Assembly (NCBI RefSeq): GCF_000515355.1
Contig: NZ_KI911740.1
Span: 64,219 to 128,218 of the forward strand
Reading direction: 5' to 3'
DNA: 64,000 bases
Source of the DNA: Promicromonospora kroppenstedtii DSM 19349
GTDB lineage: Bacteria; Actinomycetota; Actinomycetes; Actinomycetales; Cellulomonadaceae
Shown here: piece after piece, positions 29,764-54,700 of the stretch
Position numbering within the stretch: the first letter of the stretch is position 1
How the letters are laid out: every line of letters starts with the position of its first letter
Made by a program: the position numbers and the translations under genes
Notes under the pieces: model-generated
Told to the model about the DNA's origin: nothing
What the model saw: only the letters and a program-made list of their open reading frames with translations
Database searches by the model: none

Positions 29764-29770
29764 GTGGAAC

Positions 29771-31601: not shown

Positions 31602-31605
31602 AGTA

Positions 31606-32868: not shown

Positions 32869-32959
32869 CGCGGCCCAGCCGGGCTCGCCAGACCAGTAAA
32901 TGCAACCGTTGTTCCGGGGCGGACGCTCCACTCCCGGCGAATAGAGCAGGAAGTGTAGA

Positions 32960-33817
32960 TTGACTAATCATGCGGCATATCGCCCATTCAGGTTTGACTC
33001 GCAGGGTGTGTTGTACGACCACGGCCCAGACTCCTTCCGGCGTCCGGGCGTTCCGCCAGGACGGACAATCGAGCTGCATTGGGATTCGAGCAGCATCTAC
33101 CCAGGAACGTCGCGCCGAGTTTGGATCCATATTCCTGACGCGTATGACCCAGCGGAAGCTGCAGGACTCGCGGTGTTTCAAGACGGGTGGTGGTACCTGG
33201 ACCCAGACGGTGACGTCAGAGGCGCGATCGTGTTGGACAACCTCGTGCACAGCGGTGACATCCCTGTGACAGTCGGAGTTTTCGTAGACCCCGGCGTCTT
33301 CGAGTCCGTCGGGGACCCATCGCTGCGCAAGAACCGTAATGCCGAGTACGACGCCTTTGATTCCCGCTATGGCAGTTTCCTCGTTGATGAAATCGTCCGT
33401 GAGGTCAGAAGCCATGTCAATGTCAGCGACAACCCGGACCGTTGGGCGATCATCGGGGGAAGCAGCGGTGGAGACTGCGCCTTTACCGCGGCCTGGCACC
33501 ACACCGACCGATTTCGTCGCGTAGTGTGTTTTCTCTCGAGCTTCGCGCAGATTCCCGGTGGTAATCCGTACCCCGAGCTCATTCCAAACACACCACGCAA
33601 GCCGCTTCGGATCGTGATGCAGGCTGGCCACCGTGACCTGCGTTGGAATCAGCCTGAGAGGAACTGGCTCGCAGAGAATCTACGAGTCGGTGCCGCCCTG
33701 GCCGAAGCTGGGTACGACTTCCATCTCGTCCTCGGGGACGGCGGGCATAACGCGAACCATGCGGGAGTGCTCCTGCCTGACGCGCTTCGCTGGCTCTGGC
33801 GTGAACCGATCACTTGA
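32960..33817 (+). CDS. Esterase D / Fes-like alpha/beta hydrolase
   Basis: This is a hydrolase of about 285 residues in the enterochelin-esterase-like group: RRVWIHIPDAYDPAE near the start, FQDGWWYLD, VTVGVFVDPG, the nucleophile elbow IIGGSSGGDCAF (Ser), an acid region MQAGHRDLRWN and the histidine in GDGGHNANHAG. TTG 32960 is preceded by AGGAAG eight bases upstream. In siderophore and peptide clusters such enzymes release or trim the product; here it may replace the missing thioesterase, which is inference. No signal peptide is seen. Confidence 0.82.
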   Translation: MTNHAAYRPFRFDSQGVLYDHGPDSFRRPGVPPGRTIELHWDSSSIYPGTSRRVWIHIPDAYDPAEAAGLAVFQDGWWYLDPDGDVRGAIVLDNLVHSGDIPVTVGVFVDPGVFESVGDPSLRKNRNAEYDAFDSRYGSFLVDEIVREVRSHVNVSDNPDRWAIIGGSSGGDCAFTAAWHHTDRFRRVVCFLSSFAQIPGGNPYPELIPNTPRKPLRIVMQAGHRDLRWNQPERNWLAENLRVGAALAEAGYDFHLVLGDGGHNANHAGVLLPDALRWLWREPIT

Positions 33818-33939
33818 GCCTTCGGGGACGCGTAGGCGTGCCGGTGTTATTTGCGTTTCTGTTGGCGTGGAACGGTCGGCGGCTCGTGCCGGCGCCGAGG
33901 GAACCACGTGCTCGGTGCGGCCATGGTTCGCCTGTGGGC

Positions 33940-35788: not shown

Positions 35789-36874
35789 TCACCGGGCGTT
35801 CGGTCTTTTCGTGGTTCGGGCGGCCTCGGCGGCGCGGGCGAAGGCGTTGGTCTCGGCGAGTACCTCACGAAAGGTGTCCCAGTCCGTCTCAGAGGCGGCC
35901 TCGGCGATGACGGTGGGGTTGTACTGAGTGGTCCAGCCCTTAAGGCCGGGCCAGATCGCGGCCCACTGCCGCAGGCTGGCCGACGGGACGCTGCGTCGCG
36001 TGCCGCCAGAGTGGTCGCTGTCGTGGTTGTCGGCCTTGCTCCTGTTGTTGTCTGAGGCGCGGTGGCGGTTCTCGTTCTTCTTGACCGTGGCCAGTAGCTC
36101 TTGGACGTCCTCAGAGGTCACGGGTTCGATGGTCTGCTGGTCGGGATCGGTGGCGGCGAGAGTTGCCCGTACGGCCTCGTACTCGGGGAAGACCGGGTGC
36201 CCGTCCTGGATCCGCGCCAGGGCCGCTGTGGCGAGGCTGCGGATGTGGTCAGGCCGGGTGGCGTCGCGGGTGAGGTCGACGAGCATGCTGAGGCGTTCGA
36301 GGGTGTTCTGCGACTTGCGGCCGGTGACGATCAGCGCAGCCTGCTCTCGGACCTTGCCTTGCCCAGGGTGCTCCTGTGCGATCTTCGTCGGTTCGGCAGG
36401 TTGCCCTGGTGGGGTCCGGTGGACTCCACCGTCGGCGTCGACCTGGCTGGTCTTCTTGTTCTCGTTGCGGCGTGTGCCCCCGAAGCGGGTCTCGGCTTGG
36501 CGGCGTGCGGCATCCTCGCGGAGTAGTTCCTTGATCTCGCGATAGAGGGCTTCCTTCTCCAGCGGGGTGTAGTCCTTGCGTTGGGTGTTCTCATCGCGTT
36601 CGGCGAGCAGAGCCGTGACCGGGTCGGAGATCCCAGAGCGCACCCAGACCTCGACCGACCTCCAGCCCAGACGCTTGACGGCCTCCAGACGCCGCCACCC
36701 GCACACCAGCACCCGGTCCGGCGTGACGGTGATGGGCTGCAGCAGCCCGAGCTGGTCGATCGACGCGGCGAGCGAATCAAGGTCGCCAGCGTCCTTGCGA
36801 TGGCGAGCCCCGACGATGATCGAGTCAACTGTCACGGTGAGCGCCCCGGCGAGGGCGTCGGCTTCGTTAGGCAT
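35789..36874 (-). CDS. ParB-like nuclease/partition-domain protein
   Basis: The 361-residue protein has an N-terminal ParB/Srx-fold domain (about 13-110): VDSIIVGARHRKDAGDLDSL, LGLLQPITVTPDRVLVCGWRR (the Arg-rich CTP/NTP-binding box) and a helical region with ERDENTQRKDYTPLE. A central helix-turn-helix-like part follows, then charged and low-complexity sequence (KKNENRHRASDNN) and a Trp-rich C-terminal domain. Such proteins occur in actinobacterial conjugative elements and plasmids for partition or regulation. Its ATG overlaps the end of the upstream gene by eight bases. No ParA gene is present, so partition alone is doubtful. Confidence 0.85.
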   Translation of the reverse strand: MPNEADALAGALTVTVDSIIVGARHRKDAGDLDSLAASIDQLGLLQPITVTPDRVLVCGWRRLEAVKRLGWRSVEVWVRSGISDPVTALLAERDENTQRKDYTPLEKEALYREIKELLREDAARRQAETRFGGTRRNENKKTSQVDADGGVHRTPPGQPAEPTKIAQEHPGQGKVREQAALIVTGRKSQNTLERLSMLVDLTRDATRPDHIRSLATAALARIQDGHPVFPEYEAVRATLAATDPDQQTIEPVTSEDVQELLATVKKNENRHRASDNNRSKADNHDSDHSGGTRRSVPSASLRQWAAIWPGLKGWTTQYNPTVIAEAASETDWDTFREVLAETNAFARAAEAARTTKRPNAR

Positions 36875-40331: not shown

Positions 40332-40889
40332 GTGATTCTGCTAACGAATGGACCCGTTGTGCCGATCGAGCACGAGGGCAAGATCCTCGATATCGACCCA
40401 GCCGCCGTCGAGCGGACGATCCTCGACAAAGGTGGCCAGAAGTTCGGCGAGAAGCTGATGCGCCGGTATGTCTATGACATCGTGCCTGGCGACATGTCCA
40501 AGTGGATCAGGCTGCGGGACACAGGCCAGGAAACGACACTCACGGTCAAGGAGATCAAGAGCGACGCGATCGATGGCACCCATGAGACCGAGGTCGTCGT
40601 CGACAGCTTCGAGGAGACGAATGCGCTGCTCGGGATGCTCGGTTTCACCGCGAAGTCGTACCAGGAGAACAAGCGGGTGAGCTTCGTTCTGGACGGCGCC
40701 GAGATCGAGATCGACAGCTGGCCGCGGATTCCCACCTACCTGGAGATCGAAGCCGCAACAGCCGAGGAGGTGATCCGAATCGCCGGCCTGCTCGGCTTCG
40801 GCGCCGATGACCTCACCGGGGAGAACACGATGAAGGTCTACGACCGGTATAGCATCGACCTGGCTGCGATCCCCGAACTCCGCTTCTGA
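40332..40889 (+). CDS. CYTH-domain protein (class IV adenylate cyclase/triphosphatase fold)
   Basis: The 185-residue triphosphate-tunnel enzyme has the diagnostic ExExK as IEHEGKILDID, further tunnel strands KWIRLRDTGQ, TLTVKEIKS, ETEVVVDSFEET, RVSFVLDGAEIEID and TYLEIEA. CYTH enzymes hydrolyse inorganic triphosphate or thiamine triphosphate or make cAMP; the sequence does not decide which. GTG 40332 is the longest start; GTG 40359 would begin one residue before the ExExK strand. It ends about 135 bp before the convergent tyrS gene. Confidence 0.85.
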   Translation: MILLTNGPVVPIEHEGKILDIDPAAVERTILDKGGQKFGEKLMRRYVYDIVPGDMSKWIRLRDTGQETTLTVKEIKSDAIDGTHETEVVVDSFEETNALLGMLGFTAKSYQENKRVSFVLDGAEIEIDSWPRIPTYLEIEAATAEEVIRIAGLLGFGADDLTGENTMKVYDRYSIDLAAIPELRF

Positions 40890-41024
40890 AGCGCCAGGCT
40901 GAACGGCAGTTCCAGCAAGCCACGCTGCCGTCGAGGAGCGACCGACTGCGGTCAGCGCCACGACCAGAGTTCCGAAGAGATCGAAGAAGACGGTGCGCTC
41001 CCCGGGGCGCCGCCGGCCATGGGC

Positions 41025-42413
41025 TCAGCCGGCGATCTTGGCGAGTTTGCGGCCGACCTTGAGGAAGACCTTGCCCGCAGTCGTGTCGATCCCCGCGAGG
41101 ACCGTCGCCAGGCTCTCGCGGGCATCGTCCGGTGTCAGCGTCGTCTGCGCCCGCCCGCCATCGGTCTCGACGACGATCCGCAGTCCATTCTGTTCTGCCA
41201 CGCGGCGCACGTCGCCGTTCGATTTCGCGAATCCGAGGCTCTTCACGATCTCGGTGACCGGCACGTCGAGGTCCGCCACTACCGGGAGATCGGAGACGTC
41301 ACTGAAGGAGCGCTTCGAGAACTGGGCGGTGAACTCCTCACGAGCCTTCATCGCGGCGTCGACGCCGTGGATCGCAGCAGTGACCTCGCCCGCGAGGATC
41401 TTCTTCAGGTCCATCGGGTGCAGGGTCCCGGCCTCGAGCCGCTCGATGACGACGGCGAGCTCGGCATCGGTCCACTCCGACAGCGCGCGGAAGTAGGGCT
41501 CGACCAACCGGTCCGGCACGGACATGAGCTTGCCGAAGATCTCGCCTGCCGGGGCCGCGACAGGCACGTAGTTGCCCAGCGACTTGGACATCTTCGCGCC
41601 TGTGCCGTCGGTGCCCTCGATGAGCGAGGTCGCCGCGACGATCTCGGGCGTCTGGCCGCTGATCTCCATGACCTTGCGGCCCATCTGCATGTTGAGGAAC
41701 TGGTCGATCCCGCCGATCTCCACGTCACTGTTGATCTCGACCGAGTCCAAGGCCATGACGACGGAGTAGATCAGCTCTGCCATCGACAGCCCCTGGCCAG
41801 CTTCGAGCCGCTTGCGGAAGTCCTCGCGCTGCAGCGGCATCGAGACCGGGATCTTCGTGAGGATCTCGATGATCTGCGGAAGCTTCACATCGCGCAGCCA
41901 GTCGCCGTTGTAGCGGAACTGGGCGTGCGAGAAGTCGAAGAACGGGGTGACCTGATCTTTGTAGGTCGCCAGGTTCCGGGCAATGTCCTCGTCGGTCAGC
42001 GTCGGGCGCTCGTCGGACCGCCCCGAGGGGTCGCCGATCTTCGCGGTGATGTCGCCGACGATGAAGACGACCTGGTGGCCCATCCGTTGGAACCGGGACA
42101 GCAGCATCATCGGTACGGAGTGGCCGAGGTGGACCTCCGAGCCGGTCGGGTCGATGCCGAACTTCGCGATGAACTTCCGATCCTCGGCAGCGGCCCTGGC
42201 GACGCGCTCGGCGAGCGCGGGCGTCGACGGCTGTAGCTGCTGGGTTCGGGCTGCGATCAGCTCGGCCTGCTCGGACGGTGAGAGGTCCGACAGGTCCATC
42301 GTGCGGCGGGCCGTCGTCTCGGTGAGCAGGTCGCTGACCGCCTGATAGCCGGCCAGGTCGGCTCCACGCAGCAGCATGGTTGCGGTCTGGACGGACTGGG
42401 CGAGGCGGGTCAT
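41025..42413 (-). CDS. tyrS: Tyrosyl-tRNA synthetase within lasso peptide operon
   Basis: This class I synthetase charges tRNA-Tyr. Signatures: FGIDPTGSEVHLGHSVPM (HIGH element HLGH), IVGDITAKIGDPSGR, GGIDQFLNMQMGR and AKMSKSLGN (KMSKS). The C-terminal part (about 390-460) is S4-like (VKSLGFAKSNGDVRRVAEQN). ATG 42413 is given because AGGAG lies 12 bases upstream; ATG 42298 would remove 38 poorly conserved residues. It is the last gene of the minus-strand lasso operon, about 95 bp after the methyltransferase gene. A housekeeping copy elsewhere is expected; an extra copy here may give resistance or serve biosynthesis, both inference. Confidence 0.93.
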   Translation of the reverse strand: MTRLAQSVQTATMLLRGADLAGYQAVSDLLTETTARRTMDLSDLSPSEQAELIAARTQQLQPSTPALAERVARAAAEDRKFIAKFGIDPTGSEVHLGHSVPMMLLSRFQRMGHQVVFIVGDITAKIGDPSGRSDERPTLTDEDIARNLATYKDQVTPFFDFSHAQFRYNGDWLRDVKLPQIIEILTKIPVSMPLQREDFRKRLEAGQGLSMAELIYSVVMALDSVEINSDVEIGGIDQFLNMQMGRKVMEISGQTPEIVAATSLIEGTDGTGAKMSKSLGNYVPVAAPAGEIFGKLMSVPDRLVEPYFRALSEWTDAELAVVIERLEAGTLHPMDLKKILAGEVTAAIHGVDAAMKAREEFTAQFSKRSFSDVSDLPVVADLDVPVTEIVKSLGFAKSNGDVRRVAEQNGLRIVVETDGGRAQTTLTPDDARESLATVLAGIDTTAGKVFLKVGRKLAKIAG

Positions 42414-42507
42414 GGTCGTCTGCTACTCCTGAGGTCAGTAATGGGTTCGTGCTTGGTCGAACCTGTCGGCGGGGTGGACCGGCAGAGGACTCCGCCGTAG
42501 ACAGCGC

Positions 42508-43758
42508 TTAGGTGATGAGCACGGGCCAGTTGATCGCGAGCGTGCCGTGCGGGCGTGGCAGGACCGCCACGGACGATGAGACATCCTCGTCTGGCTCGGT
42601 ACCGACGGGCCACCACTGGAACAGCGGTTCGGCGCCTCGGTAGTCGGCGCCGTAGCGGGCGATCGTGTCGGCGAGCCGTCGGGTGAGGCGGGCTGCGTCG
42701 GGGCCTTTGCCGATCGCGCCGACTTCGAGCGTGGTCTCTGTGGCGGGACGGCGGTGCAGAGCCGCGAACGAAGCCCCGTCGACGAGGGCCGGGTAGAACG
42801 ACATGTCTGAGCCGCGGTCCGCCGGGTCCTCGGCTTCCATCGCGCAGGCGCCCGGCTGGACCAGGACGTAGGTGAGCAGGTCGAGCCAGATGGTGCGGTT
42901 CTTGTAGATCACGCCGGACCAGGCCTCGACCGGTTCGGTCGCCAGGACGTCGTCCGACACCGCGAATCCTTCGGGGACCTTGGTACCGGGGAACGTGAAC
43001 GTGACGGGCTTGCCCGACGGGCCGGTCAGCTGGACCGAGGGCGGGTTGAAAATCCCCGCGCCCTGTAGGGGCACGAATCCACCCGGCACTGTTGACTCCG
43101 AGACGAGTCGACCGTGCCTGTTGCGGAACCCGATGATGCGTTGAAGTCCTGGTGCGATCTGGAGGGGGACGACCAGGATCCCGTCGGGCGCGAGCTGCTC
43201 GATCCAGGTTTGCGGGAGGGACCAGGGGGAGACGGTGACCATGATCCGGTCGAACACGCCGCGCCCGAGGAGTTCGGCGGCATCGGCGGTGATGACCTCG
43301 ACCCGGTCGGTCAGGCCGAGATCTTGGAGGCCGGTGCGGGTGCGGGAGCTGACGTCTTCGTCTATGTCGACGCTGACCACGGTGCCGGTGGGTCCGACAA
43401 GGTGGGCGAGCATGGCGGCATTGGGGCCGCCGGACCCGATCTCCAGCACGCGCTGCCCTTCCTGGACCTCGGCCTGCGCGAGGTTGCCGGCGTGCATCGT
43501 TGGTGCGGACAGCGAGGACAGGGCCTTGCCGTCGTCGCCGAACCGCGTCCGCAAGGCATCGTGGATCGCGTATGGCAGGTCTGCCGGGGTGCCAGCGGGT
43601 GCGAACACCTCGCGGGGTACTGCACGGAACGTTGCCTCGATCTTCGGGTCCGAGAGCACGCCAGACTCTATGAGCTCAGCGATCATCCGCTCACGCAAGG
43701 CTTCGGAACTCAACGTCGGGTCGGCGTCGATGCCGCTCTGCGCATCGGTCTGTGTCAT
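42508..43758 (-). CDS. PIMT/FxLD-type O-methyltransferase
   Basis: This 416-residue SAM-dependent methyltransferase has an N-terminal half related to protein-L-isoaspartate methyltransferase: IESGVLSDPKIEATFRAVPR, APTMHAGNLAQAEVQEGQRV, motif I VLEIGSGGPNAAMLAHLVG and VSVDID. The C-terminal half (about 210-410) matches the extra domain of the FxLD-system methyltransferases found in RiPP clusters. In RiPP pathways such enzymes methylate an Asp side chain of the precursor, which then closes to an aspartimide. The start overlaps the upstream GNAT stop (ATGA). It probably acts on the lasso precursor, whose core has Asp10. Confidence 0.85.
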   Translation of the reverse strand: MTQTDAQSGIDADPTLSSEALRERMIAELIESGVLSDPKIEATFRAVPREVFAPAGTPADLPYAIHDALRTRFGDDGKALSSLSAPTMHAGNLAQAEVQEGQRVLEIGSGGPNAAMLAHLVGPTGTVVSVDIDEDVSSRTRTGLQDLGLTDRVEVITADAAELLGRGVFDRIMVTVSPWSLPQTWIEQLAPDGILVVPLQIAPGLQRIIGFRNRHGRLVSESTVPGGFVPLQGAGIFNPPSVQLTGPSGKPVTFTFPGTKVPEGFAVSDDVLATEPVEAWSGVIYKNRTIWLDLLTYVLVQPGACAMEAEDPADRGSDMSFYPALVDGASFAALHRRPATETTLEVGAIGKGPDAARLTRRLADTIARYGADYRGAEPLFQWWPVGTEPDEDVSSSVAVLPRPHGTLAINWPVLIT

Positions 43759-44462
43759 GCGTTCCCCCTGTCAGTTGACTGCTTCGGTTGATCGATTCCG
43801 AACAACTGGCGGACCGACGGGGCTCCGTCGAGTGCAATCTCGGCACGCAGGTGGTCCGGGCGGGCATCCCACAGCGCTCGGGACATGCGGTAACTGTTCT
43901 CGAAAACCGAGCGTCCTTCGCGGGCGGTGACCCGCGACCCGTTTGCCGTGTACCCGAGACGGCGGGACACGGCGTTCGAGGCGGGATTGTCGTCGTATGC
44001 CTCGCTGACCATCTCTGCCGCGCTGAGCCCTTCGAACGCGAGGTGCAGCGCCATGAGTCGCATCCGGGTGCCGATGCCCTGGCCATGGTGTCGAAGCCCG
44101 AGCCAGGAGCCGGTACTTCCCGATCGGGTGACCTGGAAGTTCTTCGCAGAGATCTGTTGCTCCCCGACGATCTCGCCGTCGCGGAACACGGCAAGCGACA
44201 GCGCCCAGTCGTCGGCGGCGGTCCGGCTCCGGTTCTTCCACTGGTGCGCGAGAACGTTCCGCTTGACCTCTTCGTCGGTGCCACGGGTCCATGGCCAGGA
44301 GAACGGGGCGACCTCGGGGTTGTGCACGCCATCGGCGGCGAGACTGGCGAGCGCGAGCAGCTCGACGTCGTCGGGCAGGCGCAACTCCAGGTCATCCCAA
44401 CGGACCCGCAATCCGAATGTCGGTAGGACTGCGCTCAGAGCGTCCCGAGAAGTACCCGTCAT
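43755..44462 (-). CDS. GNAT acetyltransferase 1 of lasso operon
   Basis: This is an N-acetyltransferase of 235 residues, RimJ/RimL-like: DLELRLPDDVELLALASLAA at the start, a middle WALSLAVFRDGEIVGEQQIS, the CoA loop GSWLGLRHHGQGIGTRMRLM and EAYDDNPASNAVSRRLGY. It overlaps both neighbours by four bases, so it is fully integrated in the operon. Acetylation of a core lysine is a known feature of the albusnodin lasso group, and this enzyme or its neighbour is the natural candidate. Which of the two acts on the peptide is unknown. Confidence 0.85.
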   Translation of the reverse strand: MTGTSRDALSAVLPTFGLRVRWDDLELRLPDDVELLALASLAADGVHNPEVAPFSWPWTRGTDEEVKRNVLAHQWKNRSRTAADDWALSLAVFRDGEIVGEQQISAKNFQVTRSGSTGSWLGLRHHGQGIGTRMRLMALHLAFEGLSAAEMVSEAYDDNPASNAVSRRLGYTANGSRVTAREGRSVFENSYRMSRALWDARPDHLRAEIALDGAPSVRQLFGIDQPKQSTDRGNA

Positions 44463-45076
44463 GGGTGGGGTCGCTGGGTACCGAGGACGGCGGCTTCGAC
44501 GAGTTGCGGTCCGCTGTACTCCTCAGGGATGGCGTCCATGATGATCTCGTCGGCGGGTTGGCCGAGCCAGGAGCCGGTGCGGCGTCGGGTGCCGACGGTG
44601 CGGAACCCAGCCTTCTCGTAGACGCGGATCGCGGCGGTGTTGTTGGCCAGGACCTCGAGGTAGACGCAGCGCAGCGCGGTGACGTGGAAGGCCCAGTCCA
44701 GGACCATCGTGGTTGCGGTAGTGCCGGTGCCGTGCCCGCGGTGGTCGGGTTCGCCGATGTAGATGAAGAACTCGGCGGTGCGGTAGCGGTCGTCGATGAG
44801 CAGGGACGTCATCCCGACTGGCGTCCAGGTGTCGTCGTGTCGACGGTAGATGGTGAAGCGGGTCTGGTCGGCGCTGCCTTCGAGCTGGGCTTCGAGGCCG
44901 GCGGTGCGTTCGGTGAGGGATTCCGGGGTCTGGCGGGCGTAGCCGGCCATGACCGGGACGGAGTTCTCCCAGCGCCAGTAGGTCTCGGCCAGGTCGGCGC
45001 GGAGCGGGCCGAGGCCGACTCCGTCGTGGGTCAGCCACAGGTCGGGGCTTGCAGTGTTGTTGATGACGAGCTCCAA
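44459..45076 (-). CDS. GNAT acetyltransferase 2 of lasso operon
   Basis: This is a second GNAT protein of about 205 residues: LELVINNTASPDLWL, RFTIYRRHDDTWTPVGMTSL, the CoA loop EPDHRGHGTGTTATTMVLDW and LEVLANNTAAIRVYEKAGF. The start is unclear. The frame is open to 45199 inside the B2 gene, but the family begins at LELVI, so TTG 45076 or CTG 45085, eight to ten bases beyond the B2 stop on the minus strand, is likely. Coupling to B2 and to GNAT 1 (ATGA at 44459-44462) is tight. It could acetylate another lysine of the core, which has four, or protect the host. Confidence 0.82.
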   Translation of the reverse strand: MELVINNTASPDLWLTHDGVGLGPLRADLAETYWRWENSVPVMAGYARQTPESLTERTAGLEAQLEGSADQTRFTIYRRHDDTWTPVGMTSLLIDDRYRTAEFFIYIGEPDHRGHGTGTTATTMVLDWAFHVTALRCVYLEVLANNTAAIRVYEKAGFRTVGTRRRTGSWLGQPADEIIMDAIPEEYSGPQLVEAAVLGTQRPHP

Positions 45077-45081
45077 GTGGG

Positions 45082-45684
45082 TCAGGGGATGGCACGTAGG
45101 ACGGTGTAGCGACTTGTTGTCGGGGGCTCCGCGACGGGGGAGCCGTGAGCCTGGATCCAAGCGTGGAACTGCACCGGATCCGGCGCAACGCCATGGCACC
45201 AGGTCACGCTGCGTCGACGCAGTGCGAGGACCAGTACGGCGGCGGCCGACTCCTCAAGGCACGCGACCCGGAACGGCGCCCAGCGCGACGCCCAACGGAC
45301 GGCGCACACGGCCTGTTCCGCCTCGCCTGTCGCCGACGGCGTGGTGGTGAGGCCGGCTGCCGTCGCCACAAGGTTCGTCAGCCGTGACATCGCTCGCTCG
45401 GGCGGACCGAGCGAGCGGACCACCAGCGTCACGACGAGTGCCGCTGCAGCAGCGACAGCGTGGCGGACAGTGGGCGGCGGAGAAGGGGGGAATTCGACGT
45501 CGGCCTCCTCGGTGCCGAACGACAGCCCCCAGCGGGCTCCATGGATAGCCCCGGGTGCCGCCGCCCACGCTTCGGCTGTGGTGCCGGTAGCGGCGGTGAT
45601 ACGACCGGTCGCGTAATCGACCCGGATGGTCACGCCGTCGAAGACGCAGACCCTTACGTCAGGGATCGCAAATGCAGACATCAT
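45082..45684 (-). CDS. Lasso peptide B2 leader peptidase with N-terminal RRE-like segment
   Basis: This 200-residue transglutaminase-fold cysteine protease cuts the lasso leader. The C-terminal domain (about 75-180) has the catalytic Cys142 in RVACLEESAAAVLVLALRR, VTWCHGVAPDP and His174 in FHAWIQAHG. The first 50 residues (VRVCVFDGVTIRVDYATGRI, TTAEAWAAAPG) look like a short PqqD-like leader-recognition element. No separate B1 gene is found, so a B1-B2 fusion or a reduced system is proposed. Its ATG overlaps the cyclase stop (ATGA). The B2 call is good; the RRE reading is tentative. Confidence 0.82.
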   Translation of the reverse strand: MMSAFAIPDVRVCVFDGVTIRVDYATGRITAATGTTAEAWAAAPGAIHGARWGLSFGTEEADVEFPPSPPPTVRHAVAAAAALVVTLVVRSLGPPERAMSRLTNLVATAAGLTTTPSATGEAEQAVCAVRWASRWAPFRVACLEESAAAVLVLALRRRSVTWCHGVAPDPVQFHAWIQAHGSPVAEPPTTSRYTVLRAIP

Positions 45685-47507
45685 GGCGTGAGCACCTCCG
45701 ATCTGACGTTGTCGCTGGTGCTCTCCCAGACGGGAAGTGCAGTGGAGTGGTGAGCCCGTAGCCAGGTCTCGCAGACGATCGCGGCGTCCAAGAGCCAGAG
45801 GCCGCCGGTGAGTCCGGCCGCGGCCCGACGCAAGCCGTTGACCAAGCCCGCGGGGTCGATCAACCCGAGTGCGGCGAGGTGCCCGTCGGCGATGCTGCTG
45901 AGACCGCTCAGGTGGGTGCGCAGCCCGAGGTGGTAGTCGGGGGTGTAAACGCCCTTCGTGGTTCGTGTCAGCAACGAGGCCGGCAGGATGCCGCCCATCT
46001 CTGCTCGAAGCACTGGTTTGTACGCGGCCGGGCTCGGCATCCTTCCAGCGACCCCGGACAGGTAAGAGTCGATGACACGGGAGTCCGCGAACGGGTTATG
46101 CAGGTGGACGCCGGACTCGGCCGCTAGCTGAGCATCAGCGTAGGCCGTGCGTCCGACCTCGCCCATCTGCTCGACGACGTCCCAGACCGCCCGCTGGCCC
46201 GCCGGTACCGCCAGAGCTGACTCGGCCGCCTGGTCCGCGCGTACTGCGGCGTGGTTCCGAGCCATAGGGGTAGCCCAGGGTTGCAGGTTGACTAGCGGCA
46301 GCAGCTGCCTCAGGCGCCGGACTGCGCGAGGACTTGGAACCTGCCCGCGTGCCAGCCGTGCCCATGCTTCAAGCGCGTCGGCAGGGTCACTGCGTAGGGA
46401 GTCAAGGACATCGCTCAGGACTCGACCCGGTGAGCGGCGGCGCATACGGGCAAGGCGAACTGCCTCCTCCACAGCCTCGCGGTACCGCCCGGTTGCGAAG
46501 AGGTCAGCGATCCACGCGTCCGGCGTACCCAGCAACGAGTCTCCGCCGTCACCCGTCAAGTGTGCATCGGTGCCCACTCGGTCAACCATCGCGGTCATCT
46601 GGTAGTCGAATCGAGCGTAGGCGCATGTCGATGGCGCCGGTTCGTCGGTAGCCGGGATGGTGTCCAAGCCGCCGTAAGGGAGGTGCCCCGCCTCCAGCGG
46701 GACGAGGTGATGTGCGAGCCCGGGCCGTTCGGCCGCTTCGAGGGCGTAGCGCAGGTCGCCCGCTGGGCGGTCGAACGGTGCATGGACGGTGAAGGCAGCC
46801 ACGGACCGGTCGGGGCTGAGTCGGTGTGCGGCCAAGAGTGCGAGGGAGCTGGAGTCGAGGCCGCCGGACAGGTCCGACGACGGCGACTCGGTGTCGTCCA
46901 CCCGAACCCCGACGGCGGCGTCGAGCTCCGCACGGAGTGAAACCCCAGGATCCGGTGCCCCACCCGGCCACCACACGCGGGCCACAGCCGTCGCGCTGCT
47001 GCTGATCTTCATCCGGTGGCCGGCGGGCACCAGGTCGACCCCTTCGAAGTAGGTGGTGGTGCCCGCAAGGAGGGGGCTGCTTGGGGCGAGCAGCTCCACC
47101 GCGAGGCGCTCGCTGCTCACAGCAGCATTGATCAGCCCGGCCAGGCCGCGCGCCGACGTTGCCCAGTACGTGGTTCCGTCGAACACCGTGGTGTAGACGG
47201 GGACGGAGGACGCAAGGTCCGTCCAGATGGTGGTGGCTACCGTCGTCTGCTCGACGACGGCGTATGCGCCCGGCCACCGTAGGACGACGTCGTCCGGAAC
47301 ACCGGATGCAGCAAGGTGGCTCAGCTCGTCATCGCTGGCGCCGCACGTCCCGACGACAACGACACACCGCATTGGAGCGTTCGCGGTGCGAACCCATGCT
47401 CGGGGTGGGTCGCCGACCAGCCAGAGGTCCGACACGCCGTCGACGGGTACGCTGCCAGCCGGACGCCGAGCAGTATCCGTGCAGAGCGATCCTGCGAGCC
47501 AATGCAT
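45681..47507 (-). CDS. Lasso macrolactam cyclase (asparagine-synthetase-like, C protein)
   Basis: This 608-residue enzyme activates the ring Glu/Asp side chain with ATP and closes the macrolactam with the core N-terminus. The N-terminal half is an amidotransferase-like domain without the catalytic Cys2; the C-terminal half has the PP-loop SDLSGGLDSSSLALL (SGGLDS at 214-219), HLTGDGGDSLLGTPDA and HNPFADSRVIDSYLSG. The set resembles the albusnodin-type cyclases. ATG 47507 follows GAGGGG by six bases; longer frames to 47588 lack a ribosome site. It sits between the precursor gene and B2, the normal order. Confidence 0.88.
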   Translation of the reverse strand: MHWLAGSLCTDTARRPAGSVPVDGVSDLWLVGDPPRAWVRTANAPMRCVVVVGTCGASDDELSHLAASGVPDDVVLRWPGAYAVVEQTTVATTIWTDLASSVPVYTTVFDGTTYWATSARGLAGLINAAVSSERLAVELLAPSSPLLAGTTTYFEGVDLVPAGHRMKISSSATAVARVWWPGGAPDPGVSLRAELDAAVGVRVDDTESPSSDLSGGLDSSSLALLAAHRLSPDRSVAAFTVHAPFDRPAGDLRYALEAAERPGLAHHLVPLEAGHLPYGGLDTIPATDEPAPSTCAYARFDYQMTAMVDRVGTDAHLTGDGGDSLLGTPDAWIADLFATGRYREAVEEAVRLARMRRRSPGRVLSDVLDSLRSDPADALEAWARLARGQVPSPRAVRRLRQLLPLVNLQPWATPMARNHAAVRADQAAESALAVPAGQRAVWDVVEQMGEVGRTAYADAQLAAESGVHLHNPFADSRVIDSYLSGVAGRMPSPAAYKPVLRAEMGGILPASLLTRTTKGVYTPDYHLGLRTHLSGLSSIADGHLAALGLIDPAGLVNGLRRAAAGLTGGLWLLDAAIVCETWLRAHHSTALPVWESTSDNVRSEVLTP

Positions 47508-47595
47508 CTGTATCCCCTCTGCGCTCGTCATGCCCGACCTTGTGTGGTGCCGGGTTGTGGTGGCCCGACGGAGTCGCCGAGCCACCACCGTCAGA

Positions 47596-47730
47596 TCAGC
47601 GGTAGGCGTACCGCTTGTCCTCTGTGCCGGCCTTCTTCTTGCTGCCCTCTGTGAGCGTGACGATGCCGCCGAGGTCAGTCACTTCCTGCTCCGTGGGCTC
47701 GGCCGCCGTCGTGATCGCGTCGCTCTCCAT
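47596..47730 (-). CDS. Lasso peptide precursor, albusnodin-like
   Basis: The 44-residue precursor has ATG 47730 with AGGAGAG six bases upstream. The leader (1-28) ends VTLTE with Thr at position -2, the usual lasso cleavage rule. The predicted core is GSKKKAGTEDKRYAYR (16 residues): Gly1 with Glu9 as ring acceptor gives a nine-residue ring, leaving the tail DKRYAYR. The EDKR-x-AY segment resembles the albusnodin family as I recall it. Core lysines at 3, 4, 5 and 11 are possible acetylation sites and Asp10 a methylation/aspartimide site. It precedes the cyclase gene by about 90 bp, room for a partial terminator. Confidence 0.85.
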   Translation of the reverse strand: MESDAITTAAEPTEQEVTDLGGIVTLTEGSKKKAGTEDKRYAYR

Positions 47731-47751
47731 CGCTATCTCTCCTCTCATCGG

Positions 47752-47770
47752 GTCCGGGTAGGTCCCGGAC
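47752..47770. promoter_or_regulatory. Hairpin GTCCGGG-taggt-CCCGGAC upstream of precursor gene
   Basis: A perfect 7-bp stem lies 22 bp upstream of the precursor start on the minus strand, in the 106-bp gap after the HAD gene. It may terminate the HAD transcript, act as an operator or stabilise the precursor mRNA 5' end. Confidence 0.45.
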
Positions 47771-47836
47771 AACTGTGGGGCCACGGCCGACTACTGGCCG
47801 GCGGATCCGCTCGGCAGGCGACCAGGGCGCGGCGTG

Positions 47837-49057
47837 TCAGTGCGGGAAGTCGTGTGCGGCCGTGGAAGTCAGCGCTTCGAGCCGCTCGTGCAGAGGCAGC
47901 TCGAAACCGGTCCGGCCTCCGCCGTCGTGCACGCTGCGCCAGTGCGCACGACGGCGGCCGACATCGCCGCGTGGAAAAGCGAGACCGGCCTCGGCGGCGG
48001 CCAGCTCGATCGCACGCATGGTCGCCCCGGTGGCAGAGGGGATCGGGCCGTGCCGTACCCAGACGCCGTCGCGAAGGACCCAGGTGTCGCAACGCGAGAT
48101 CTCTGAGCGGTCCTCGTGCCATACCCGCAAGGCCATAAGGCCCGATGAGGTATGAGCAGCGACCGCGAGCTGCCCCGCGAGCGGTGAGAGTGCATCCGTA
48201 TGGATGTCCCTGGGAAGCAGAGAGCGGAGAACTGTGATGGCCCCATGCTGGTCGATGGTGCCGGTGACCTCGTCCGCCGCCTGTCGCACCTCATCGGAGG
48301 CCTGTCCCATCGCGACACCGCGGCGCGCCCAGGTAAGCATTCCCAAGTCGTTGTGCCCGTCGCCGACCGCAACCGTTGCCGCGGGCCCGATGCCGAGCTG
48401 GGTGCGGAGGCGCTCCAGGGCGGGTGCTTTTCCGGTTCCAGGCGCCGTCAGGTCCAGCCAGTCCTGCCCGCCGGGGGTCACCGTGACTCCGGTAGCGGCC
48501 AGGTCCTCGACGTGCTGGCTGATTCCTGGCGCGTGCAGCGCGATCCTCGTTGCCGGCATCCTGCACAGATCCACGACTGGGACGTGCTTCTGTTCGCCGT
48601 TCAGCAACTCAGGTTCGAACGGCTCGGACACCTGCCAGCCCCACCCGACGTCCTCGACACCGATCCGGACCCCAGGCGCAAGGTCGAGAGCACGCCGGAC
48701 CGCCGGAGCAGGGTCGAACTGCTGCGCACGCTGGATCACGTAGCCAGAGGCGACAGCTTGGTCCAGACGCACCGTCAGAGCGCCGTTCGAACACACTGCA
48801 AACCCGTCGATCAGGCCGAGCTGCGTGGCGACCGGACTCAGCCCCACGAGAGACCGACCCGTCGCCAGCACCACCTCGTGCCCGGCCGCGCGAGCCAGGT
48901 CCAGCGCCGCAACCGTTCCGGTCGGCACTCTGCCGTCACGCCCAAGGAGCGTTCCGTCGATGTCCAGGGCGACCATGCGCCGGGAGACGATGTCAGTGGT
49001 CTCGTTGCGCGGTGTCACCGGCCTCATGCGAGGGGGGCTTGCTGGGGTGTGGGCCAT
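47837..49057 (-). CDS. Cof-type HAD hydrolase with extra C-terminal domain
   Basis: This is a HAD phosphatase of 406 residues. Motif I is MVALDIDGTLLGRDG, motif II VLATGRSLV, the cap spans about 110-215, and motifs III-IV read GTGKAPALERLRTQLG and VAVGDGHNDLGMLTWARRG, the Cof/YbhA pattern. Residues from about 300 (LMALRVWHEDRSEIS, GPIPSATGATMRAIELAAAE) form an additional unrecognised domain. ATG 49057 has GGAG eight bases upstream; the frame is open to 49324 but that part is non-coding in character. It is upstream of and co-directional with the lasso genes, so a dedicated role cannot be excluded. Confidence 0.87.
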   Translation of the reverse strand: MAHTPASPPRMRPVTPRNETTDIVSRRMVALDIDGTLLGRDGRVPTGTVAALDLARAAGHEVVLATGRSLVGLSPVATQLGLIDGFAVCSNGALTVRLDQAVASGYVIQRAQQFDPAPAVRRALDLAPGVRIGVEDVGWGWQVSEPFEPELLNGEQKHVPVVDLCRMPATRIALHAPGISQHVEDLAATGVTVTPGGQDWLDLTAPGTGKAPALERLRTQLGIGPAATVAVGDGHNDLGMLTWARRGVAMGQASDEVRQAADEVTGTIDQHGAITVLRSLLPRDIHTDALSPLAGQLAVAAHTSSGLMALRVWHEDRSEISRCDTWVLRDGVWVRHGPIPSATGATMRAIELAAAEAGLAFPRGDVGRRRAHWRSVHDGGGRTGFELPLHERLEALTSTAAHDFPH

Positions 49058-49259
49058 CGGAAGTGCTCCCTTGACGGGCTGCGGTATCGACGTGGACTGG
49101 CGAAGATCCAATGCCTTAACGAAATCGCAGGTCAGGCGCTCAAAACACCCCACAGGTCGGTGAACATGCCGTACGAACGCTCCCTGTTCAACCGGGATAT
49201 CTTGCGGTGGGTCGCCATAACGTGTTCGGTGGGAGCCACACCGAACGAGAGGGCCGGCC

Positions 49260-50303
49260 ATGGGGGCGAGGAGCGTCCGACAGGAGCAGCGGGAACTCGC
49301 CGCGGCCCTGCGCGCCGAGCACAAGACCTGGGTTCAAGTCGCCACAGTGTTCCGCGAGCGATATCACGTCAACCTCCGCGCCGGACTGCGGATGGCACGC
49401 GACTGGAGTCAGCGGGACGCCGCCGACCGCTGGAACCAGCGTTGGCCCGACGACCCGAAGACGGACAAGAATTTCTCATACTGGGAACTGTGGCCCAGCC
49501 GTACAGGCCACGCACCATCGTTGGACGTGCTGGCGCGGCTCGCGGAACTGTACGAGTGCAGTGTGGCCGACCTCGTCGCCGACGGCGCAGACTTCCGAAC
49601 GCGGGACCAGGCCTTCGGCGGTCCCGCGGGGTTTGATGCCGCCCAGCTGGCTGGGCTTACGAGCGCCGGTGACGCCGGCGCGGAGGCGCCCGAAGAACTG
49701 GCAACTCTGCTGGAGCACTCAGACATGGGCGAGATCGCTCGCCTGGCGACTGAGTGGTCGCGCCAGCTGGGCAACCCGGACGAACGCCGCGCGCTCCTGC
49801 TCAAGCTCAGTGCCGGGCTTTCTCTCGCCGTTGCATCACCTGAGTTCACAGGGCAAGCCTCGTCTGGCGGAACTACGAGCGCGCACTCGCCGGCATCGGC
49901 CGGTTTCGAAGGGATCTGGCACAGCCGGTACGTGTATCGCAGCGCGAGGACGGAGGACGATCTGGTCGATGAGCACTACCTGGTGGCCAGGCAGAGCGCG
50001 AACAAGCTCATCGCGCAGAGCCTCCCGCACTCGACCGGCTCCCGCGTACGGGTCGAGCTCGCGCTCGACCCGCCCGTCGCCACGGGGAGCTGGAGCGAGA
50101 CGACGGCGCCCGACGGGTACTACCGAGGCGCGACCTACCATGGGGCTCTGCAGCTTGTGATCGACCCGAGCCGCCGGCGCATGAGCGGGCGCTGGCTCGG
50201 TTTCGGACGGGACTTCACCGTCAACACCGGCGAGTGGACACTTACCTGGGAAGAAGGTTCTACCGCCAAGTCCGTCCAGCGCCGCTACCACGAGCGGGTC
50301 TGA
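49260..50303 (+). CDS. Actinobacterial helix-turn-helix regulator with C-terminal beta domain
   Basis: The 347-residue protein has an N-terminal DNA-binding part (1-110) of the type [36 protein letters not shown] and [20 protein letters not shown], found in many streptomycete-like regulators. A linker follows, and a beta-rich C-terminal domain (about 215-345) starts [13 protein letters not shown] and ends [10 protein letters not shown], a small lipocalin-like fold. The ATG follows GAGAGGGCC. It is divergent from the HAD-lasso block and may regulate it; that is positional inference. Confidence 0.8.
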
Positions 50304-50323
50304 CCAATTGCACGGCTGGCAGG

Positions 50324-51226
50324 TCATCCCTCGGCGGTGAAGTTTGGTCCGGTGATGGCCGCGATCACGGTCGTGCCCGGTGGAAACCGCCGCTGTTGAA
50401 TCAGGTCGAACAGGCCGTACATCATCTTGGCGACGTACACCCACTCCAGCCGTAAGCCGTGCTTGCTCTCGAAGTCGTCGATGAAAGCGCGCAGAGAGTC
50501 GTTCGTCTTGGCGAACCCGCCGAAGTGGTAGCCGGTCTCGATCGACCAGTTTTCTGTGACGCGGCCGTAGGCGTCGCGTTGGAAGGAGGCGACGTCGTCG
50601 CGCAGGAAGTCGCCACCCTTCAGCACCGAGAATCCGATGGCAGCACGTGAAGCGGGAAGTGCCGCGGCGATTCCGGCCAGCGTTCCGCCGGTGCCGCTGG
50701 CGCAGCAGATGACGTCGAAGTCCTGGTCGATCTCGTCGACCAGCTCGGCGCATCCCCGCAGCGCGAGCGCGTTGCTGCCGCCCTCGGGGATCAAGTAGAA
50801 GTCCCCGAACTGCTCGCGCAGGCGGTCGATCACCGCCGGATTGGTCTTGGACCGGTAGGTGGTTCGGTCCAGGTAGGTCAGCCGCATGCCGCGCTCGACG
50901 GCGAATTGCAGCGATGGATTCAGCGGGAGGTGCTCTTCCCCGCGGATCACGCCGATCGTGTCGAACGCGAAGATCTGGCCTGCGGCCGCTACGGCACGGA
51001 TGTGGTTGGAGTATGCGCCACCGAACGTCAGGAGACGGCGGGCGCCGGCGTCGCGCGCAGTGGCCAGGTTGTACTTCAACTTGCGCCACTTGTTGCCCGG
51101 CAGCTCGGGGTGGATCAGGTCGTCCCGTTTGAGCAGCAGCCGCACACCCGCGTCAGACAGGCGATCGTCGTGCAGCTCCGTCAACGGCGAGGGCAGGTGG
51201 AGGTCGGGAGCCTCAGCAGCGCACAT
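50324..51226 (-). CDS. PLP-dependent D-cysteine desulfhydrase / ACC deaminase-like enzyme
   Basis: This is a fold-type II PLP enzyme of 300 residues: LKRDDLIHPELPGNKWRKLK with the Schiff-base Lys in GNKWRK, FGGAYSNHIRAVAAAG, IPEGGSNALALRGCAEL and CCASGTGGTLAGIAAAL (phosphate-binding loop). The family contains ACC deaminase and D-cysteine desulfhydrase, which sequence alone does not separate. ATG 51226 follows GGAGG by eight bases and is preferred to 51268 or 51244. It converges with the regulator gene at 50303. A role in the lasso or transfer modules is not apparent; it is probably cargo. Confidence 0.88.
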   Translation of the reverse strand: MCAAEAPDLHLPSPLTELHDDRLSDAGVRLLLKRDDLIHPELPGNKWRKLKYNLATARDAGARRLLTFGGAYSNHIRAVAAAGQIFAFDTIGVIRGEEHLPLNPSLQFAVERGMRLTYLDRTTYRSKTNPAVIDRLREQFGDFYLIPEGGSNALALRGCAELVDEIDQDFDVICCASGTGGTLAGIAAALPASRAAIGFSVLKGGDFLRDDVASFQRDAYGRVTENWSIETGYHFGGFAKTNDSLRAFIDDFESKHGLRLEWVYVAKMMYGLFDLIQQRRFPPGTTVIAAITGPNFTAEG

Positions 51227-51735
51227 GCCGACGACCTCCATGACACCGATCCGGACCAGTGCAGTCACAGTAGACGACGGCGGGACGCGGGCCGCACAGG
51301 CGACTCAAGCCGCGGCACGAGCACACCGTCCGCTGGATGTGGGAACCAGACCTCCGCAGAAGGATGGGAAAGCGGAACTGCTGTACGGAATGGCGACACC
51401 TAGGCCCGCCCGCCCTCGGGGATGGGCGGGATGTGCCAAGCCAGGGACCAGGCGAACGCAACCGCGTCCGAGGCGCTACCCGATGGCAGCCACCGACTGG
51501 CTTGGTGCGACGTCGACACGGGCACAGGCGACTCACCGGCACGCGAAAGCCGCGACGTCGCGGCAGCGGCGCGGGCGTCGAGCTGAGGGACAGCAAGTCC
51601 CGCGGGCCGCTTCGGCAGGACCACACCTCTGGCACCAATGGCGGATTGAGTCGTTTGATAGCGGTTGCCGAATGCATGCTGAGGTGCGTTCCGACAATCG
51701 TGCCGGGCCTGGGACGGGCCGCACACCTGACTGGT
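51227..51735. other. Non-coding region before relaxase gene, candidate oriT
   Basis: About 500 bp without a credible gene. It contains CCCGCCC (51405-51411) inverted at 51424-51430 and several shorter GC-rich repeats. MobF-type transfer origins commonly lie directly upstream of the relaxase gene, so oriT may be here, but no conserved nick site was recognised. Confidence 0.3.
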
Positions 51736-54700
51736 GTGGCGGTGTCGATCAGCGTGGTCGCAGCAGGGGACGGAGTCGGGTACCTGCTGCGATCGGTCGT
51801 GCGTGGCGACTGCGACCTGGGTGAGCCGTCGTCGGTGCTTCGCTACTACACAGAGGCTGGCACTCCGCCGGGGCGGTGGCTCGGCAAGGGCGTCACGGAG
51901 TTCGGCGACGGGAAACTGAAGCCCAGCGACGCGGTGACCGAGGAACACCTTAAACGCCTCATCGGCGCGGGCTTGGACCCGGTCACGGGGGAGCCGCTTG
52001 GGCTGACGTTCCCGGAGGCCGCCGGGGCCAGTGACCGGAAGGTGGTAGCCGGATTCGATCTGACGTTCTCGCCGCCGAAGTCGGTCTCGGTGCTGTGGGG
52101 CCTGGCCGACCGCCAGAGCCAGGCGCTGATCCTGGCCGCGCACCACGCCGCGCTGGCGGAGGTGGTGGAGTTCTTCGAGCGGGAGATCGCCGCCACCCGG
52201 ATTGGGCACGGTGGCACCGCGCAGGTCGACATCGCCGGGATAGCTGCCGTCGCGTACGACCATTGGGACTCGCGGGCGCACGACCCGCAGCTGCACACCC
52301 ACCTGGTCATCTCCAACAAGGTCCGCACCCTGATCGACGGCCAGTGGCGCACTCTGGATTCTCGGGCGATGTACAGGGCGCAGGTCGCGCTCTCGGAGCA
52401 CTACAACGCCGTCCTGATGGACCGCCTGACGGGCACCTTCGGGATCGGCTGGGACCAGCGCGACCGCGGCGAGCGGCGCACCAAGGCATGGGAAATCACC
52501 GGTGTCCCCGAGAGCCTGATCAGGGAGTTCTCCTCCCGGTCGCGGGATGTCGACGTCCGCACCGACGAGCTCATCGCCCAGTACGAAGCCCGGCACGGGC
52601 GGCGGCCCTCGCCTGAGACGATCAACAAGCTCCGCTCCCAGGCGACGTTGGAGACCCGGCCGGGGAAGCAGATCCGGTCGCTGGCCGACCTGACCACCGA
52701 ATGGCACCACCGCGCCGGACAGTTGGTGGGGGGCACCGCCGGGTGGGCGCAGGACGTGATCACCTCCGGCCTCGGGCACGTCTTCCGCGCCGACGACGTC
52801 CCGGCGGACCTCGTCGACAAGCTCGCCGCCCGGGCCGTCGACGTCGTCTCCCAGAAGCGCGCCACGTGGACGTACTGGAACCTGTGGGCCGAAGCCACCC
52901 GCCAGACGATGGGCGTGCGCCTGGCATCTCACGAGGAGCGCGAACTGCTCGTGACCCGGGTCGTGGCAGCCGCCCAGGCTCGGTCGCTGCCGCTGACCCC
53001 ACCCGAGCTCGCACCCACCCCGGAGATGCTGCTGCGGGCAGACGGGTCCAGCGCACTACGACCACGGCACCACGTCGTGTACTCCAACACCCGGGTCATG
53101 GCCGCCGAGACCCGGCTCCTGACCCGTGCCGAGGACACCTCCGGTCCGGTGACCGGTCAGAGCGGATTGCGGGTCGCGGTCCGGGCCCGGTACCGCGGCC
53201 ACCACCTGACCATGGAGCAGGCCACGGCGTTGGCGTCAATCGCGACATCGGGCCGACTGGTGGACGTGCTGGTCGGCCCAGCAGGGACCGGGAAGACCAC
53301 TGCGATGTCCGCCCTGCTGACCGCCTGGCACCACGACCACGGGCCAGGGTCAGTGATCGGGCTGGCGCCCTCGGCCGCCGCCGCGAAGGTCCTGGCCGAG
53401 GACCTCGGTATCCCGTGCGACACCACCGCCCGGTGGCTCACTTCCTATCACCACGGGCACACGCAGTTCACGCAGGGGCAGATGGTGATCGTGGATGAGG
53501 CCTCCCTCGCAAGCACCATGGACCTGGACCGCATGACTGCCGCTGCCGAACAAGCGGGCGCGAAGGTGCTCCTCGTGGGAGACCCCGCGCAGTTGCAGTC
53601 GGTGGACGCGGGCGGTGCGTTCGGCATGCTCGTCGAAGCACGCAACACTGCTGCCGTCGAGGATCCAACCCTCGTAGCCAGGGGTGCGCCGACGTTGTCC
53701 GGGGTGCACCGGTTCCGCCACGACTGGGAGAAAACGGCCTCCCTCGCCCTCCGCGATGGAGACGCCTCGGTGATCGACACCTACGACCATCACGACCGCA
53801 TCCGCGAAGGCACCACCGCGGAGATGATCGACACGGCGTATGCCGCCTGGCAACGGTCCATCGCGGTGGGGGAGACCAGTGTGCTGGTGGCCGAGGCCAT
53901 CAACGTCGTGCACAACCTGAACCAGCGCGCCCGCGCGGACCGCATCCTGACCGGCCTCACCAGCCCTGGACGCGACGTCCCCCTGGCCGACGGCGGCCGT
54001 GCCTCGGTGGGGGACCTTGTCATCACCCGCCGCAACGACCGCACGCTGACCACCAGGCGGGACGTGCTCGACGGCGGCTTCGTTCGCAACGGCGACCGCT
54101 GGCAGATCATTGCGGTGCACCAGGACGGGTCGGTCGAGGCGCACCGCGAAGGACAGAAGTTGGGTGCCAGCGTGCTGCTGCCGGCCGACTACGTCGCTGA
54201 GCACCTTGACCTCGGCTACGCGGTCACAGCTCACCGTGCCCAAGGCCTGACCGTGGACACCTCCCACGTCCTAGTCACCCGCACCACTACCCGCGAGAAC
54301 GTCTACGTCGCGATGACCCGCGGCCGTGACACCAACATGGCGTACGTCGCGCTGGACCAGCCCACCACCGACCACAACCCACGCCCCGACGACAAGACCA
54401 CCGCCCGCAGCATCCTGTTCGGGGTGCTCCAGCATTCCGGCGCCGAGCTGTCCGCCCACCAGACCCGGACCGTCGAACATTACAAGTGGACCGGCATCGC
54501 GCAGCTCGCGGCCGAGTACGAAGTCATCGCGAGCCTCGCCCAACGCGACCGCTGGGCCGATGTGGCTCTGCGGACGTTCGTCACTGACGGCAGGCTCACT
54601 CCTGCCGAAGCGCGCACCGCGATCGACAGCGACTCGTTCTGGTCCCTGTGTGCCGAACTGCGCCGCATCGAAGCCACCGGCCATGACGTCCACGCGACAC

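Follow-up and report, generated by a model that had tools for sequence, protein, structure and literature searches.

Does an operon for an albusnodin-like lasso peptide in Promicromonospora kroppenstedtii DSM 19349 extend beyond the genes for precursor, cyclase, B protein and acetyltransferases to a methyltransferase and a tyrosyl-tRNA synthetase (TyrRS)? The question was raised by a sequence-only reading of a stretch of 64,000 nucleotides of this genome (contig NZ_KI911740.1, positions 64,219 to 128,218), hereafter called the window, in which positions are counted from the first letter. The source genome, labelled G000, is a draft of 209 contigs with a completeness of 83%, and the window lies on its contig C179. 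The analysis described here makes it rather probable that six genes, all in one direction on the minus strand (42508-47730), form an operon on a mobile element for an albusnodin-type lasso peptide that is acetylated and modified by the methyltransferase, whilst the synthetase gene downstream, tyrS, is independent of it. The genes in question are as follows.

47596..47730, minus strand: precursor peptide of 44 amino acids (NF033525, over the cut-off)
45681..47507, minus strand: lasso macrolactam cyclase (C), with the start ATG at 47507 picked by its GAGGGG site
45082..45684, minus strand: B protein, with a B2 leader peptidase domain (residues 76-198)
44459..45076, minus strand: GNAT1, acetyltransferase in the AlbT position (profiles and cluster comparison)
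43755..44462, minus strand: GNAT2, second acetyltransferase (profiles and cluster comparison)
42508..43758, minus strand: PIMT-type methyltransferase, of FxLD/LanSA descent, with which the conserved unit ends (profiles, tree and synteny)
41025..42413, minus strand: second TyrRS (tyrS), a neighbour judged to lie outside the operon (TIGR00234, 260 bits, cut-off 113.8)
47837..49018, minus strand: Cof-type HAD phosphatase, upstream of the precursor gene (profile)

The albusnodin-like genes are present where the sequence-only reading had placed them: the precursor (NF033525, the albusnodin family; 31.6 bits against a cut-off of 30), the cyclase (NF033561; 641.4 against 300) and the B protein (NF033537; 80 against 33) all pass the NCBIfam cut-offs, and the A-C-B-T gene order of the albusnodin family, with a GNAT gene after B, is found. 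Profiles also confirmed the two GNATs and the PIMT/FxLD-like methyltransferase after B, a set that is conserved in three Promicromonospora genomes. The genes had further been described as joined mostly by ATGA-type overlaps. Read directly, such overlaps exist at the C/B, GNAT1/GNAT2 and GNAT2/methyltransferase junctions; at the B/GNAT1 junction there is a gap of 5 nt, and the methyltransferase and tyrS genes do not overlap, with 94 nt between the stop codon of the former and the ATG of the latter. No terminator-like site was found in this 94-nt gap, and a promoter scan of 40800-49200 was uninformative, as it gave zero sites anywhere. The six genes would be co-transcribed in the operon proposed here. 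For the cyclase, alternative starts are available at 47534 or at a GTG at 47588.

The precursor consists of a leader, MESDAITTAAEPTEQEVTDLGGIVTLTE, with Thr at position -2, and a predicted core, GSKKKAGTEDKRYAYR, encoded at 47599-47646. Going by the pattern of the family, from which the core boundary was taken, the ring would run from G1 to E9 and would be followed by a loop Asp10 (47617-47619) and a conserved Lys11 (47614-47616). Judging from the families to which the enzymes belong, B would remove the leader and the cyclase would join Gly1 to Glu9. The B protein carries an N-terminal extension of ~75 residues, possibly a fused RiPP (ribosomally synthesized and post-translationally modified peptide) recognition element; when the profile of this extension was set against B1 proteins, the match was weak (probability 36%).

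Conservation within the genus delimits the unit. Among 13 Promicromonospora genomes, G000 included, cyclase matches at E <= 1e-20 were found in five, and at an identity of at least 85% in three: G000, G009 (P. panici; locus L073) and G012. All three carry the HAD, precursor, C, B, GNAT1, GNAT2 and methyltransferase genes in this order. The core in G012 is identical to that in the window, that of G009 is GSKKKKGTEDKRYTYR, and the cyclase is 86% identical in both over 583 codons. The DNA aligns as a single block with each of the two, spanning 42520-51284 in the case of G009 and 42524-48973 in that of G012. Since these blocks begin only 12 bp and 16 bp, respectively, short of the last base of the methyltransferase stop codon (42508), synteny ends at this stop codon in both genomes. 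The ratio of nonsynonymous to synonymous substitution rates (dN/dS) is 0.16-0.43 across the six genes, indicating purifying selection, and the values for the methyltransferase (0.20-0.22) and GNAT2 (0.19-0.24) are like those for the cyclase (0.21-0.22). The HAD gene, although adjacent to the operon in all three carriers, shows a different divergence: dS to G012 is 1.15, whereas the six lasso genes have values of 0.33-0.50. Thus, it may have another history, and its membership in the operon is uncertain.

A fourth genome, G004 (P. iranensis; loci L035 and L115), has no cyclase match, and its methyltransferase is a 3' remnant of ~490 bp next to the HAD gene. The locus is a deletion scar, where the operon was lost and the 3' remnant of the methyltransferase gene was fused to the 3' part of the HAD gene. 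Short alignments with GNAT1 (40 residues, 68%; apart from the scar) and GNAT2 (13 residues) were also found in G004.

The same comparison bears on tyrS, which the sequence-only reading had taken as an extension of the operon, a view that does not hold. Synteny stops before the gene. G012 contains the entire operon, yet its best TyrRS match is only 28% identical. In G009, tyrS lies upstream, beyond the HAD gene and ~4.7 kb before the precursor gene, where it overlaps a NUDIX gene, and in the draft as deposited its codon 114 is an in-frame TAG. In G004, tyrS is intact and the lasso cyclase is absent. Thus, an intact, adjacent tyrS is present in only one of the three operon carriers. Beyond the genus, the best 80 of the 87 relatives found in named genomes yielded 79 loci that were kept, with 54-95% identity and mostly from actinobacteria. 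Lasso biosynthesis genes were found near only one of them, i.e., L073 of the same genus, in flanks of up to 10 kb where the contig allowed; for many of the loci, a contig end is less than 10 kb away. Judging from the three genus genomes and the 79 relatives, tyrS is a widespread, separately inherited second TyrRS and not an operon member. It could in principle be an immunity gene, i.e., a resistant copy of the target of a peptide that inhibits TyrRS. A divergent second TyrRS (27% identical to the other one of the genome) directly downstream of the operon would fit such a role, as would the retention of tyrS in G004, which lost the operon, as expected for an immune non-producer. This idea was nevertheless rejected as highly improbable, considering the full operon without such a tyrS in G012, the stop codon in the G009 copy and the near absence of lasso genes around the relatives. 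With tyrS excluded, the gene no longer points misleadingly to a target of the peptide.

Elsewhere, the second tyrS has other company. In Streptomyces, it is mostly found beside genes that we take, from their sequences, to be TldD/TldE-like and MoaA-like, and in several Pseudonocardiales beside another conserved run. In the latter (L113, 5325-13170), it adjoins a short PF00579 synthetase-like paralogue, with genes for a glycosyltransferase, a methyltransferase, a HAD protein and a dehydrogenase; this neighbourhood is possibly a pathway of its own. Matches to GNAT2 in the flanks of L036, L039 and L113 (37-48%), and GNAT1/GNAT3-like matches at L035 and L036, were taken as general GNATs, and the methyltransferase remnant described above is found near tyrS at L035. 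The second-TyrRS family (L035-L113) splits at a conserved Y....(A/G)LD segment, where Met (43 of the 79 proteins) alternates with Gln (36). The site is presumably linked to tyrosine binding, and the Met-type enzymes may differ in their ligand or be resistant to an inhibitor, a point that would also suit the immunity gene considered above. Among plasmids, four records matched tyrS at E <= 1e-60, all less than 60% identical and none covering 80%. An RNA-family search of 38-52 kb gave one match, far below the gathering score, and no T-box leader for tyrS. In the literature covered, which largely excludes subscription papers, no work was found that joins a tyrosyl-tRNA synthetase, self-resistance and a biosynthetic gene cluster; judged by their titles, papers that name both lasso peptides and tyrosyl-tRNA synthetase deal with genetic code expansion and related engineering.

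The combination of acetyltransferase and methyltransferase genes was evaluated in lasso clusters drawn, not exhaustively, from cyclase searches of a class sample, one further family, the window, the genus mates and one plasmid. The set comprises all rows over the cut-off from one cyclase search and 42 of the 46 rows listed in another (G911, G920, G987 and the second G1043 row were left out). Matches under the cut-off in the former search were omitted except for G000:C58, and the genus mates G006 and G011 and the plasmid were added. Regular expressions classed 37 of the 55 loci as albusnodin type and 14 as D(T/S)-motif clusters, i.e., 51 classified loci; the other four fitted neither class (L171 and L195, each with a GNAT, and L202 and L207, each with a PIMT). 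Tailoring genes were counted only when located on the same strand and 0.5-6 kb downstream of the cyclase gene; a PIMT-like match at L159, on the opposite strand and 5.6 kb away, was left uncounted. L228, with precursor, cyclase, B2 and GNAT and no methyltransferase listed, stands outside the count, L174 was dropped as a duplicate of L177, and L175 and L176 were dropped because no cyclase is present at either locus.

In this set, a GNAT gene follows B in 34 of the 37 albusnodin-type clusters. None was detected in L169, L192 and L194, which were kept as misses; the cyclases of L169 and L192 were found only in part by the search. The methyltransferase is present in three of the 37, all from Promicromonospora, with none counted in the other 34. 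Conversely, a PIMT gene is found in all 14 D(T/S)-motif clusters and a GNAT gene in none of them. GNAT and methyltransferase genes thus occur together only in the three Promicromonospora clusters among the 51 classified.

With regard to GNAT1, the core residue corresponding to Lys10 of albusnodin is Lys11, two residues after the ring Glu; in albusnodin, too, the acetylatable Lys lies two residues past the ring Glu. In Streptomyces albus, albusnodin is encoded by a cluster with, like the one in the window, precursor, cyclase, B and GNAT genes in this order; Lys10 is acetylated by AlbT, in whose absence no product was seen (PMC9266682, PMC8498205). It is quite likely, given its position and similarity, that GNAT1 acetylates Lys11 as AlbT does Lys10. 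The Promicromonospora clusters differ from albusnodin in a predicted ring of 9 residues, three to four ring lysines, the second GNAT and the PIMT-type methyltransferase.

GNAT2 is confined to the three Promicromonospora clusters within the set. L164 also has two GNATs, which are both GNAT1-like. A duplication of GNAT1 was rejected as the origin of GNAT2, as the two share only 30% identity over 53 residues (27.7 bits). The nearest plasmid matches are GNATs at 48%, annotated in general terms only, the best of which lies beside an adenylation-domain protein and not in a lasso cluster. Among the 37 cores, only the three from Promicromonospora carry KKK or KKKK within the ring. GNAT2 could plausibly, although somewhat uncertainly, acetylate one or more of the ring lysines Lys3-5, perhaps for self-protection. 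More broadly, GNAT1 and/or GNAT2 might serve mainly in self-resistance by acetylating a cationic antimicrobial lasso peptide, a tentative proposal that is compatible with the reading preferred here. The lysine-rich ring of just these clusters fits this proposal, as does the lack of an exporter gene among the six genes of the operon. Moreover, Lys acetylation has been reported as self-resistance for the lasso peptides triculamin and lariocidin (PMC13352647), the same kind of reaction as proposed for GNAT1 and GNAT2. However, the loss of AlbT abolished albusnodin altogether (PMC9266682), which speaks for GNAT1 as a biosynthetic enzyme.

The methyltransferase matches the Pfam family PCMT (104.9 bits against a cut-off of 20.3) and is in this sense a PIMT homologue, as found in the clusters of the lassimiditides lihuanodin and cellulonodin-2 (PMC13001092). 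The lassimiditides, however, have D(T/S)AD cores and a methyltransferase with a WXXXGXP motif (PMC13001092). The D(T/S)AD ring motif of these group-1 aspartimide lasso peptides is absent from the core in the window, and WXXXGXP, present near the C-terminus of all 16 lasso PIMTs of the tree set, is found in none of the three Promicromonospora enzymes, two of which keep WXXXG. In the tree of 43 proteins, the latter fall inside a clade of FxLD relatives (27 rows, 100/100), apart from the lasso PIMTs. The methyltransferase was therefore rejected, by motif and tree, as one of the known lasso PIMTs, and its placement indicates that it is of lanthipeptide (LanSA/FxLD) descent. To the methyltransferases of class I lanthipeptides (LanSA/FxLD, OlvSA type; PMC13001092), it shows full-length similarity, with ~38% for the best relatives, and the tree places it in one clade with FxLD relatives. 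Relatives at E <= 1e-45 occur in 48 of the 394 class-sample genomes, and among the matches listed from other genomes, identity is 34-41%. Outside the genus, 24 distinct FxLD-type relatives were compared: a small F.LD peptide, in most cases with a T.DGC or TDDGC core, is encoded no more than four genes away from 11 of them, five have only a protein of >850 amino acids nearby, which is a loose sign, as one lasso PIMT has such a neighbour too, and eight show neither sign. The window enzyme, in contrast, neighbours a lasso precursor. It keeps the SxSAP and S-adenosylmethionine-binding segments.

Asp10 is the sole Asp in the core and directly follows the predicted ring Glu9, and all three Promicromonospora cores have it in the predicted loop. 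RiPP PIMTs methylate Asp, which leads to aspartimide or isoaspartate, and for graspetides, the residues that may come after the Asp include Lys (PMC13001092). Furthermore, 67 lasso clusters with PIMT-type enzymes have been reported, a second group of which has a conserved loop Asp (PMC10787088); the Promicromonospora clusters may already be among them. Whether the methyltransferase, captured from the LanSA/FxLD lineage, would methylate Asp10 to give an aspartimide or isoaspartate is evenly balanced in our judgement. All in all, the cluster is a variant of the albusnodin type, probably with an acetylated product modified at the single Asp10. The complete set of modifications, i.e., acetylation of Lys11 and of one or more ring lysines together with conversion of Asp10 to aspartimide or isoaspartate by a lanthipeptide-derived methyltransferase, would be rather doubtful as a whole.

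In two D(T/S)-motif lasso clusters (L197, 3644-6064; L204, 9743-12566), a PIMT gene is accompanied by a downstream gene for a FxLD/LanSA-type methyltransferase, a hint that other lasso clusters have recruited this lineage as well.

The surroundings of the operon contain genes typical of mobile DNA.

16465-17772, strand not stated: integrase
35789-36874, strand not stated: ParB-type (ParB_N) protein
51700-55209, strand not stated: TrwC relaxase
58728-63999, strand not stated: type I restriction-modification genes

From these genes, we infer an integrative/conjugative-type element that carries the lasso operon as cargo. In G012, the operon is likewise accompanied by an integrase (90%), ParB (76% and 68%, at two overlapping loci) and GNAT3, and other genes take the place of tyrS and the CYTH gene of the window. 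The further flanks of G004 and G009, as far as examined, gave no match to window proteins at E <= 1e-15. The pattern would fit cargo genes that are exchanged singly between elements, and tyrS would lie downstream by the chance of cargo order.

Several observations weigh against the reading preferred here. Only three genomes carry the six genes, and the relaxase of G012 is only 35% like that of the window. The stop codon in the tyrS gene of G009 rests on a draft assembly, and G000 and G004 share the adjacency of methyltransferase and tyrS genes, which therefore probably predates the split between the two; this is the best point for tyrS as a member of the operon. Ring lysines, single or paired, are also found in some clusters with one GNAT, so that the link between GNAT2 and ring lysines stays hypothetical. 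The methyltransferase matches TIGR04364 ('FxLD') along its full length with 315.3 bits, which is below the cut-off of 320, the three Promicromonospora enzymes sit on a branch of 1.14, and residues at other positions conserved in LanSA are changed. Its substrate may therefore differ. Finally, the favoured contexts are Asp-Gly and Asp-Thr, whereas the core has Asp10-Lys11, and clusters lacking the methyltransferase also have an Asp at this position, so that it does not covary with the enzyme. The latter point, like the absence of D(T/S)AD and WXXXGXP and the generally annotated GNATs closest to GNAT2 on plasmids, would agree with another explanation, in which methyltransferase and GNAT2 are co-transcribed passengers, e.g., for protein repair or detoxification, and the product is an albusnodin-like lasso peptide with no modification beyond acetylation. 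This is unlikely, considering the ATGA overlaps that join both genes in the window and in G012, their retention in all three operons under a constraint like that of the cyclase, and the small F.LD peptide beside 11 of the 24 relatives of the methyltransferase, an arrangement found in RiPP clusters.

The sequence-only reading had considered an operon with acetyltransferase, methyltransferase and synthetase as new. The synthetase drops out, and the pair of tailoring enzymes, seen in no other of the 51 classified clusters, stands. Acetylation of Lys and methylation of Asp are each already known in lasso peptides, and their pairing in one cluster is the new part; a lasso cluster with both enzymes was not met in the available parts of PMC9266682, PMC13352647, PMC11451635, PMC13001092, PMC10787088 and PMC8498205. 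If the reading of an acetylated and methyltransferase-modified peptide is correct, the product would be, to our knowledge, the first lasso peptide with both modifications. A changed Asp10 between an isopeptide-bonded Glu9 and an acetylated Lys11 would imply that the tailoring steps may depend on each other, and the operon offers a natural system for testing which of them needs the folded peptide. If the methyltransferase acts on the lasso peptide, an enzyme of lanthipeptide lineage would be re-targetable to a threaded substrate.

Two RNA structures flank the precursor gene.

47557..47588, minus strand: strong stem-loop in the gap between precursor and cyclase genes (fold against shuffles and comparison)
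47752..47770, minus strand: hairpin (TCCGGG..CCCGGA) in the 5' untranslated region of the precursor gene, 21 nt before its ATG

For the former, a stretch of 66 nt folds at -31 kcal/mol, and none of 200 shuffles is as stable. The stem is largely kept in the three species, with some outer pairs broken and one pair changed on both sides, and it is probably a processing or attenuation hairpin. The 5' hairpin is conserved in both G009 and G012, and its fold is equalled by 5 of 200 shuffles (z -2.17).

Beside the integrase, the window contains a biosynthesis-like gene run (18594-35220) with a GC fraction of 0.58-0.61, against 0.63-0.74 elsewhere. By sequence reading, unprofiled, its genes encode a glycosyltransferase, an epimerase, a sugar dehydrogenase, several AMP-ligases and an ABC exporter, and the run looks like a second cargo cluster. 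The genome of P. kroppenstedtii also contains a second lasso cluster (L173, G000:C58, 6943-10671), which is lassimiditide-like, with the core GQGKNDTADMKKYYY and a methyltransferase with WREAGRP; it is located close to a gene for a protein of 1169 amino acids that reads, unprofiled, like a relaxase.

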